Below are positions 40,875 through 43,640 of a stretch of 64,000 bases of DNA, piece by piece. A program made the translations under genes and the position numbers. Origin of the DNA: an uncultured Gammaproteobacteria bacterium (GTDB lineage: Bacteria > Pseudomonadota > Gammaproteobacteria > Pseudomonadales > Pseudohongiellaceae); assembly GCA_913060695.1 (NCBI GenBank), contig CAJXUA010000006.1, forward strand, positions 1 to 64,000, read 5' to 3'. The first letter of the stretch is position 1, and every line of letters begins with the position of its first letter. A model generated the notes under the pieces. The model saw only the letters and a list, made by a program, of their open reading frames with translations. It searched no databases and was not told where the DNA came from.

Positions 40875-43640
40875 ATGGACAGCAACCCTGCACAGAACAT
40901 CGATCTCATCCTAGTAGATGGCTCCTCCTATTTGTTTCGAGCCTTCCATGCTCTGCCTCCTCTGATCACTAGCAAACAGCAACATACTGGGGCCATCAAA
41001 GGCGTGATCAATATGATTCGCAGTTTGGTCAAGACCTATCCAGATAGCCGTATTGCAGTGGTATTCGATGCGAAGGGCAAAACCTTCCGCAACGATATAT
41101 ATGCAGACTATAAGGCCCACCGCCCGCCCATGCCCGATGAGTTGCGTTCGCAGATTGAGCCTATACACGCCATTATCAAAGCCATGGGATTGCCAATGTT
41201 GGTCATTGGCGGAGTGGAGGCGGACGATGTGATCGGCACGCTGGCTACCCGGGCCGACGCGGCAAAAATACGCACGCTGATATCCACGGGTGATAAAGAC
41301 CTAGCGCAACTGGTGACTGAGAATGTCACGCTTATCAACACTATGAACAATGAGGCTCTCGATCCTGAGGGCGTGAGTAAGAAGTTTGGCCTAGCCCCAG
41401 AGCGAATAGTGGAGTATCTGGCGCTGATGGGAGACAAGGCAGACAATATTCCCGGTGTTCCGGGCGTGGGCCCTAAGACGGCAGTGAAGTGGCTGCAAGA
41501 GTACGGTTCCCTAGAAGGTTTGTTGGAAAATGCCGATAAAGTCTCGGGCAAAATCGGCGAGAGGCTGCGAGAGAATATCGAGCAACTGTGGCTTTCACAC
41601 GAGCTAGCGACGATCAAGCGTGATGTAGAGCTCGATGTTGAGATCGAACAGTTGATCCATGGTGATGAAGATCTTGAGGCGCTGCATGAGCTGTTCAGCA
41701 CCTTGGAATTCAAGTCTTGGATAAAGGAAGTAGAGAGTAAGGGGGCTGTCGGGGTCGAGACGGCGCCGGAACCGAGTGCTGACGGTAGCGCGAATATTGC
41801 CGAGCGCGATGCGCTAGATAGCGCACCAGTAGAAACTATTGTCGAAGGTGTGTTGAGTCTGGAGGCTCTGGATGCCTGCTTGCAGCAAATGCGTGGCGCT
41901 GCGAATTTTGCCATGTCCCTAGAGACCGATGGCGCACATTATATGGACGCGGTCATCATTGGTGTCTCTCTAAGCGCTAGTCCCGGGCAAGCCTTCTACA
42001 TACCGCTGGGGCATGACTCTCTTGAATTTCCTAAGCAACTCGATCGTACTGAAGTCATGGAGCGTCTTAAGCCAATGTTGGAAGACGCGAGTCGGCATAA
42101 GGTGGCACACGACGGCAAATTTATTACCCATGTGCTGGCCAATTACGACATCGCGCTAGATGGGCTTCGCTTCGACACCCTCACGGCCTCCTATGTCTTA
42201 AACTCTGTGGTGCTGGATCATCAATTGCACAAGATTGCCGATCACTATCTTGGTCTCAATGCGCAATCCCTCGACGAGCTGCTGGGCAAGGGTAGGTCTA
42301 AGCTTACGATCAGCCAGCTCGACTACGATACCGTACGAGCCTACGCGGGACGCAAGTCCGATCTGGTGCTAAGGCTGAGCCAATACCTAGCGGATAAACT
42401 TAAGCAGACAGGTGAGTTGGCAGGGCTGCACAAATACTATGAGTTGGCCTTGATCCCGGTATTGCAGAAGATGGAGCGCGACGGAATTCTGGTCGACCCG
42501 GAGGTGTTGGGAAAACAGAGCCAAGCCTTGGGTGTAAGATTGATCGAGGTGGAGCGCGCCGCTTTCGAGTTGGCTGGCGAGGAGTTCAACTTAGGCTCTC
42601 CTAAGCAGTTGCAGAGAATCTTTTACGAGAAGCTGCAATTGCCGGTGCTGAAGAAGACGCCTAAGGGGCAGCCCTCTACGGCCGAGCCCGTATTGCAGGA
42701 GCTGGCCTTGGAGTATGAGCTGCCCAAGCTCATCACAGACCATCGTGGCTTAAGCAAACTTAAGTCGACCTATACCGACAAGCTGCCGCTTGATATCAAC
42801 AAGCGCACAGGGCGCATACACTCGAGTTTTCAGCAGGCAGTTGCCGCTACTGGCCGCCTCTCCTCTACCGATCCCAATCTGCAGAATATCCCTATCCGCA
42901 CAGCGGAGGGGCGCAAGGTGCGGCAGGCATTTATCGCCCGGCCAGGTTATCAGCTACTCGCCGCGGATTACTCGCAAGTAGAGCTGCGCATCATGGCCCA
43001 TCTGTCCAGCGACGCGGGGCTATTAAAAGCCTTCTCAAATGCACAAGACGTACACCGTGCGACCGCCTCCGAGGTTTTTGCGACGCCTCTGGAGGAGGTA
43101 AGCTCAGAGCAGCGCCGGCGCGCGAAGGCGATTAACTTCGGTCTTATCTACGGCATGTCCGCGTTCGGTTTGGCGAAACAACTAGGAATCGACAGGCAGA
43201 GCGCCGCGCATTATGTGGATCTGTACTTCCAGAAATATCCGGGAGTTCTGCAGTATATGGAGCAAACCCAGGCCTATGCGGATGAGCACGGTTTTGTGGA
43301 GACCCTATTTGGTCGGCGCCTTTATCTGCCCGACATCCATGCGGGCAATGGCATGCTGCGCAAGGCCGCGCAACGCACCGCCATTAATGCTCCAATGCAA
43401 GGCACTGCTGCGGATATCATCAAGCAGGCGATGATCGATATAGACCATTGGTTAGGGACTGGGGTGTTGGATGCACGCATGGTGCTGCAGGTGCACGATG
43501 AACTGGTGTTCGAGGTCGCGAATGACGATATCGAATTACTGACAGAGGGTGTGCGCTTTAGGATGGTGAGTGCCGCGTCGCTCAATGTCCCCCTCGTGGT
43601 CGATGTAGGAATTGGCAACAACTGGGACGAGGCCCACTAG
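40875..43640 (+). CDS. polA: DNA polymerase I (5' nuclease and polymerase intact, 3'-5' exonuclease residues lost)
   Basis: A 921-residue protein with three parts: 5' nuclease (STGDKDLAQLV, GDKADNIPGVPGVG), 3'-5' exonuclease fold (about 320-515) and polymerase (DYSQVELRIMAHL, RRRAKAINFGLIYG, VLQVHDELVFEV). In the exonuclease fold the E. coli catalytic acids D355, D424 and D501 align with S348 (MSLETD), I417 (GKFITH) and K494 (YAGRKSD). Only E350 and Y490 remain. The domain should be inactive, as in some Gram-positive and Thermus enzymes. It ends two bases from engB. Confidence 0.97.
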   Translation: MDSNPAQNIDLILVDGSSYLFRAFHALPPLITSKQQHTGAIKGVINMIRSLVKTYPDSRIAVVFDAKGKTFRNDIYADYKAHRPPMPDELRSQIEPIHAIIKAMGLPMLVIGGVEADDVIGTLATRADAAKIRTLISTGDKDLAQLVTENVTLINTMNNEALDPEGVSKKFGLAPERIVEYLALMGDKADNIPGVPGVGPKTAVKWLQEYGSLEGLLENADKVSGKIGERLRENIEQLWLSHELATIKRDVELDVEIEQLIHGDEDLEALHELFSTLEFKSWIKEVESKGAVGVETAPEPSADGSANIAERDALDSAPVETIVEGVLSLEALDACLQQMRGAANFAMSLETDGAHYMDAVIIGVSLSASPGQAFYIPLGHDSLEFPKQLDRTEVMERLKPMLEDASRHKVAHDGKFITHVLANYDIALDGLRFDTLTASYVLNSVVLDHQLHKIADHYLGLNAQSLDELLGKGRSKLTISQLDYDTVRAYAGRKSDLVLRLSQYLADKLKQTGELAGLHKYYELALIPVLQKMERDGILVDPEVLGKQSQALGVRLIEVERAAFELAGEEFNLGSPKQLQRIFYEKLQLPVLKKTPKGQPSTAEPVLQELALEYELPKLITDHRGLSKLKSTYTDKLPLDINKRTGRIHSSFQQAVAATGRLSSTDPNLQNIPIRTAEGRKVRQAFIARPGYQLLAADYSQVELRIMAHLSSDAGLLKAFSNAQDVHRATASEVFATPLEEVSSEQRRRAKAINFGLIYGMSAFGLAKQLGIDRQSAAHYVDLYFQKYPGVLQYMEQTQAYADEHGFVETLFGRRLYLPDIHAGNGMLRKAAQRTAINAPMQGTAADIIKQAMIDIDHWLGTGVLDARMVLQVHDELVFEVANDDIELLTEGVRFRMVSAASLNVPLVVDVGIGNNWDEAH

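Follow-up and report, generated by a model that had tools for sequence, protein, structure and literature searches.

The polA gene and its exonuclease-fold domain

The window, which is the whole stretch of 64,000 nucleotides that was analysed, belongs to a draft genome of 3.73 Mb in 47 contigs. It encodes a DNA polymerase I that lies well above the cut-offs of NF004397 (1142.9 bits, cut-off 720) and TIGR00593 (908.6 bits, cut-off 600); no other full-length PolA match occurs in the genome. A second PolA match is a frame of about 327-328 aa, which resembles the 5' nuclease alone. According to the Pfam and NCBIfam models the 5' nuclease, the exonuclease fold and the polymerase are united in a single chain, which is the layout of PolA1, the Pol I orthologues. 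The exonuclease-fold domain is recognized by PF01612 (51.0 bits, cut-off 23.6) as well as by PF22619 (45.9 bits, cut-off 27). The features discussed here are the following.

40875..43640, + strand: polA, DNA polymerase I, 921 aa (open reading frame; NF004397 and TIGR00593)
40905..41663, + strand: 5' nuclease (FEN) domain spanning residues 11-263, with intact acidic residues (PF02739, PF01367)
41850..42401, + strand: 3'-5' exonuclease-fold domain, residues 326-509, without the catalytic aspartates (PF01612, PF22619; AlphaFold model)
41916..41918, + strand: S348 at the position of E. coli D355, codon TCC (Klenow alignment)
41922..41924, + strand: E350 at the position of E. coli E357, kept (Klenow alignment)
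41937..41939, + strand: H355 at the position of E. coli 362; His is common here in the deficient enzymes of families f1, f7 and f6
42108..42113, + strand: H412-D413 at the positions of E. coli Q419-N420 (counts of alignment rows)
42123..42125, + strand: I417 at the position of E. coli D424, codon ATT (Klenow alignment)
42129..42131, + strand: H419 at the position of E. coli 426; His in every row of f1, f7 and f6 examined
42342..42344, + strand: Y490 at the position of E. coli Y497, kept (Klenow alignment)
42354..42356, + strand: K494 at the position of E. coli D501, codon AAG (Klenow alignment)
42504..43631, + strand: polymerase domain, residues 544-919, intact (PF00476, 521.8 bits)

On the strand opposite the 5' nuclease region of polA lies an open frame of 268 aa (41108-41914, minus strand), which is perhaps a mirror of codon bias.

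Against the E. coli Klenow fragment the protein aligns in phmmer without a gap from residue 326 to about residue 505, with a constant offset of 7 (four distinct PDB sequences among the matches listed), and the positions of the three aspartates are therefore unambiguous. A proofreading-proficient DEDDy enzyme has D355, E357, D424, Y497 and D501 at the five positions, for which the window PolA has S, E, I, Y and K. The first-pass annotation had named the same three replacements, and its coordinates and codons turned out to be exact when the codons were re-read. Three of the four metal-binding carboxylates are gone and no insertion or deletion brings another acid into place. The positions of E. 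coli L361, Y423 and F473, which we take to be Klenow contacts to the single-stranded 3' end or the substrate, have also drifted. The loss of the Pol I proofreading active site, which the first-pass annotation had claimed, is well supported.

In the following an enzyme is called deficient if any of the three aspartates is changed; in 52 of the 63 deficient rows of the quick tree described below none of the three is left, while 11 rows still have one or two. Lysine or arginine at the position of D501 is found in 30 of these 63 rows and in none of 87 intact rows. The intact state of the polymerase and 5' nuclease motifs, likewise claimed before, extends to the whole set: D698, R748, K751, F755, Y759 and H874-D875-E876 of the polymerase motifs as well as nine acidic positions of the 5' nuclease are identical in 63 of 63 deficient rows. 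One intact row, L192 (G401), has the three aspartates together with a cysteine at the position of Tyr497 (DEDCD) and is the only one of the 87 without the tyrosine.

Distribution and age of the loss

All three aspartates are absent in 13 of 13 genomes read from the same genus and in 11 of 11 (5/5 and 6/6) read from the rest of the family, here f1, which in the careful tree includes an uncultured Pseudohongiella (L006). A comparison with PolA of relatives had been proposed in the first-pass annotation as a way to date the loss; since all 24 lack the aspartates, a single-genome accident is ruled out. That the loss is older than the family follows from the careful tree described below. In one member of the family, L137 (G292), the polA match spans residues 7-835 and is broken by 11 in-frame stops; only one open piece of it was used. 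An apparent insertion in the PolA of G012 is a run of unread bases.

For the order 293 genomes were drawn, 289 of which gave a match, and 30 were read that had been chosen for weak or contrasting scores. These comprise 19 deficient and 10 intact enzymes and one fragment; six more weak-scoring genomes of f6 lie outside the 30. Among the genomes read from the same order, the enzyme is deficient in 8 of 8 from f6, 2 of 2 from f7 and 5 of 7 from f38. In the latter family the divide between deficient and intact enzymes runs between genera. Two genera of f38 (five genomes read: L132, L133, L135, L121, L138) are deficient and encode PolB, while two others (two genomes read: L118, L119) are intact and have no PolB, which offers a natural contrast.

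The class survey is based on 370 genomes, 353 of them with a match, from which the window's own and 59 others, chosen for weak scores, were read. Five of the 59 were not counted due to contig ends or split frames. At least one aspartate is lost in 21 of the 54 fully readable genomes, which are weak-score picks, and 33 are intact; the losses fall into 16 families besides that of the window. The 293 matches outside those read include nine with scores worse than 4e-57, and none of the deficient enzymes read in the surveys scored better than 1.4e-57. A recent loss is poorly reflected in the match score, as the deficient but otherwise little-changed domain of Pseudomonas sp. Q11 illustrates, and the 21 genomes are therefore a lower bound. 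That gammaproteobacterial Pol I is normally proficient, as had been assumed beforehand, cannot be kept as a rule in view of these 21 of 54 weak-scoring genomes and of f6, f7 and the deficient genera of f38. In two loci, L205 (G658:C39) and L206 (G334:C188) from families f137 and f69, polA is spread over two overlapping frames with the break inside the exonuclease domain, at about window residues 380-405 and with DEDDy residues on both sides, which is either a frameshift of the draft or a real split.

Among 80 named loci, which were not sampled at random but are the best-scoring matches of a deficient PolA, 74 have DEDYD at the five positions. Five of the other six group with f1. The sixth is the PolA of Pseudomonas sp. 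Q11 (L081), which has V, E, E, Y and D and is nested among intact Pseudomonas enzymes; its deficiency looks like a recent loss.

Only the columns of the 5' nuclease and of the polymerase domain went into a quick tree (LG+G4). It contains 150 PolAs (63 deficient, 87 intact); from the 199 rows aligned, roughly half of the named intact loci had been removed beforehand, along with duplicates and fragments. The tree calls for 18 or more changes of state, of which 12 are forced by starred branches, in at least 20 families. The number of changes alone does not tell losses from gains, but repeated loss of the aspartates is far likelier than their repeated regain. In a careful tree of 59 rows f1 and f7 come together as a single clade (support 96/97), all 17 rows of which are deficient, so that the window's loss predates its family. 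Family f6 is placed apart from that clade. A single common loss for f1, f7 and f6 was considered and is rejected, as the tree forcing the three together has a p-AU of 0.013, with the group having been named after the tree was seen. The loss that was described as lineage-specific in the first-pass annotation is confirmed as a loss, but the term is too narrow: it spans the whole family, predates it and has many parallels elsewhere.

The domain after the loss and alternative readings

The freed exonuclease domain evolves about two times faster relative to the polymerase domain, and purifying selection persists. For 20 deficient pairs the median ratio of exonuclease to polymerase dN is 2.85 (range 1.58-7.23), for 24 intact pairs 1.40 (0.36-4.36) (Mann-Whitney p 4.8e-7). 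The pairs were hand-picked and the two ranges overlap: among the intact pairs L013/L019 goes up to 4.36, and among the deficient ones L087/L088 is lowest with 1.58. The ratio of 5' nuclease to polymerase dN does not differ between deficient and intact enzymes (p 0.38). Across six within-genus pairs the dN/dS of the exonuclease domain is 0.025-0.127, which are rough values since dS exceeds 1 in four of the six.

The fold itself seems to be retained, as the first-pass annotation had suggested from length and pattern: the domain has no gap against Klenow, and the predicted model is confident. In 24 other proteins of f1 the region of residues 326-512 is free of insertions and deletions in 20 cases, one has a scaffold gap and three have gained or lost 2-9 residues. 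The AlphaFold model, calculated with neither metal nor DNA, gives a pLDDT of 86-97 per ten residues in the exonuclease region, mostly at or above 94, and for the whole PolA a pLDDT of 90.7 and a pTM of 0.68. In Foldseek it matches Klenow and the Bst fragment over about 600 columns. A domain that is relaxed yet constrained, and whose fold is predicted to be kept, would most simply serve as a scaffold, placed between 5' nuclease and polymerase.

Very probably, then, the window encodes an ordinary Pol I, the DEDDy 3'-5' exonuclease of which was inactivated in the common ancestor of f1 and the neighbouring family, and which now fills gaps without editing. Such a Pol I would still cut flaps, fill gaps and mature Okazaki fragments, with the emptied domain as a scaffold, and it may extend mismatched ends and bypass lesions more readily than a proofreading enzyme. 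The error rate of gap filling and Okazaki repair may rise, as the first-pass annotation had expected: E. coli Pol I lacking its exonuclease is reported to be a lagging-strand mutator, yet the H. pylori enzyme is intrinsically accurate, and DnaQ, MutS and MutL are all present in this genome. Any such cost could be borne since the genome still has DnaQ for Pol III and also mismatch repair. The dnaQ product of the genome reaches 315.8 bits (cut-off 222.7) and by eye contains DTET, NAPFD and HxxxxD, which we take to be the DnaQ active-site motifs; Pol III should still edit. MutS and MutL are both above their model cut-offs. The genome also encodes a second DnaQ-like protein of 207 aa (L203:1763-2386; G000:C1, about 291.3-291.9 kb), which stays below the cut-off of TIGR01406 with 146 bits. 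Its motif looks degenerate by eye, with ETET for DTET and with the His and the last Asp replaced, and the adjoining open reading frame appears by eye to be HNH nuclease-like.

Instead of being tolerated, the loss may have been selected, with Pol I serving as a translesion or mutator enzyme as the authors propose for H. pylori. We consider this possible but doubtful. The repetition of the loss across the tree, with its 18 or more changes of state, and the biochemistry of H. pylori Pol I (PMC3121766) fit this idea, and so does the repertoire of the window's genome, in which one Y-family polymerase match and, in a search of the genome, no B-family match were obtained. However, in a set of 80 genomes Y-family polymerases are not scarcer among the deficient (31 of 42) than among the intact (28 of 38), and the deficient genomes are even richer in PolB (15 of 42 versus 4 of 38, raw Fisher p 0.009), where the 38 intact genomes are enriched for divergent enzymes through their selection. 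The association with PolB is not significant over 9 independent pairs (same direction 1.9, opposite 0.1 on average), and a compensation of the Pol I loss by PolB was therefore not adopted.

One feature of the domain is not obviously explained by plain decay, namely a set of three histidines. Histidine at the position of E. coli 362 occurs in 21 of 26 rows of f1, 2 of 2 of f7 and 8 of 8 of f6, versus 2 of 55 intact enzymes and 4 of 87 in the larger set. At the position of 426 it is present in 26 of 26, 2 of 2 and 8 of 8 rows of these families (36/36), versus 15 of 55 and, in the larger set, 25 of 87 intact ones. Histidine at 412 (E. coli Q419) is found in 43 of 63 deficient and 17 of 87 intact rows, and the aspartate at 413 (E. 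coli N420) in 42 of 63 and 0 of 87. The full set of H355, H or Y at 412, and H419 is confined to 30 of the 63 deficient rows, all from f1, f7 or f6, and is absent from the 87 intact ones. It seems to have arisen more than once, since f6 stands apart from f1 and f7 and their joint tree is rejected.

These residues might point to a re-use of the domain, in which H355, H412, H419, D413 and K494 make up a new site for a ligand, a metal or a protein, editing having been lost first or as a by-product. Despite H419 in all rows of the three families and the restriction of the full set to them, we regard re-use as improbable. Each histidine is also found alone in intact enzymes (4, 17 and 25 of 87 for H355, H412 and H419), which is why the set is ranked only as a lead. 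D413 recurs in deficient lineages without the histidines, as relaxed constraint would give, and the AU test concerns a group that was named only after the tree was seen. Similarly, we would give little credence to the idea that in two separate lineages of the same order the emptied site was convergently rebuilt around His at 362, 419 and 426, a new Asp at 420 and Lys, Arg or Gln at 501, so that the pseudo-exonuclease domain acquired a new role in binding or regulation.

Residual exonuclease activity is unlikely. That the exonuclease works with other acids (E350, D413, D496) could be argued from E350, which is kept in the window PolA, from D413, which is new at the position of N420, and from the retained Y490, but we consider it very improbable. 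For a catalytic residue the glutamate at 357 is poorly kept (20 of 26 in f1, 0 of 2 in f7, 2 of 8 in f6), the positions of 361, 423 and 473 have drifted, and the H. pylori enzyme, which has lost the same residues, shows no activity (PMC3121766). An artefact of assembly or alignment has next to no probability in spite of the draft state of the genome with its 47 contigs, because the loss recurs in all 24 other genomes and the domain has no gap against Klenow; chance and sequencing error are ruled out as the relatives share the loss while 74 of the 80 named matches are DEDYD.

Comparison with known polymerases

Among the matches listed, the orthologous Pol I of E. coli shows 49-53% identity over the Klenow part. 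It keeps D355, D424 and D501, whereas the window PolA has S348, I417 and K494. For the Bst fragment the Foldseek TM is 0.89-0.92 of the target, also among the matches listed. We take the Pol I enzymes of Bst and Taq to be without these residues too, with K or R at the position of D501. The window PolA passes the PolA equivalog models and both Pfam exonuclease models, which is a caution that annotation at family level is no proof of proofreading.

With the three aspartates gone and the fold kept, as the prediction suggests, the protein is very probably an exonuclease-inactivated PolA1 of the H. pylori type. H. pylori Pol I (HP1470), the closest enzyme that has been assayed, has lost the same three aspartates (355, 424, 501) and has kept the domain, the polymerase and the 5' nuclease (PMC3121766). 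In the assays it did not remove 3' mismatches; it extends mismatched primers and bypasses lesions, yet is intrinsically accurate. E. coli Pol I without its exonuclease is, as related there, a lagging-strand mutator. H. pylori differs in that it belongs to another phylum and, according to the same paper, has neither translesion polymerases nor mismatch repair, whereas the genome of the window has one Y-family match, MutS and MutL.

Timinskas and colleagues (PMC12926913) found DEDDy substitutions in about half of PolA1; broken motifs are commonest in Firmicutes, Tenericutes and Actinobacteria, with an enrichment among anaerobes. In view of this and of the H. pylori precedent, the loss in the window is of a known kind. 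The same source describes PolA2/APEX of Actinobacteria as a polymerase of family A whose exonuclease domain is inactive. The window PolA does not belong there, as PolA2/APEX has no 5' nuclease domain; a further feature of PolA2/APEX is the beta-clamp motif QxxLF in the vestigial domain. In the mostly open-access literature searched, we found no published account of a family-wide loss here or of repeated loss inside the Gammaproteobacteria, some of which the supplements of PMC12926913 may include.

Pol I editing has thus been dispensable repeatedly inside the class of E. coli itself, beyond the phyla in which its loss is commonest. Since intact and deficient genera occur side by side, as in f38 and around Pseudomonas sp. 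Q11, the worth of Pol I proofreading in nature becomes testable. The window PolA resembles the exonuclease-inactivated PolA1 of Firmicutes, Tenericutes and Actinobacteria in its broken DEDDy motif; its type of loss differs from theirs in being nested among the intact enzymes of one class, in which it has occurred many times.
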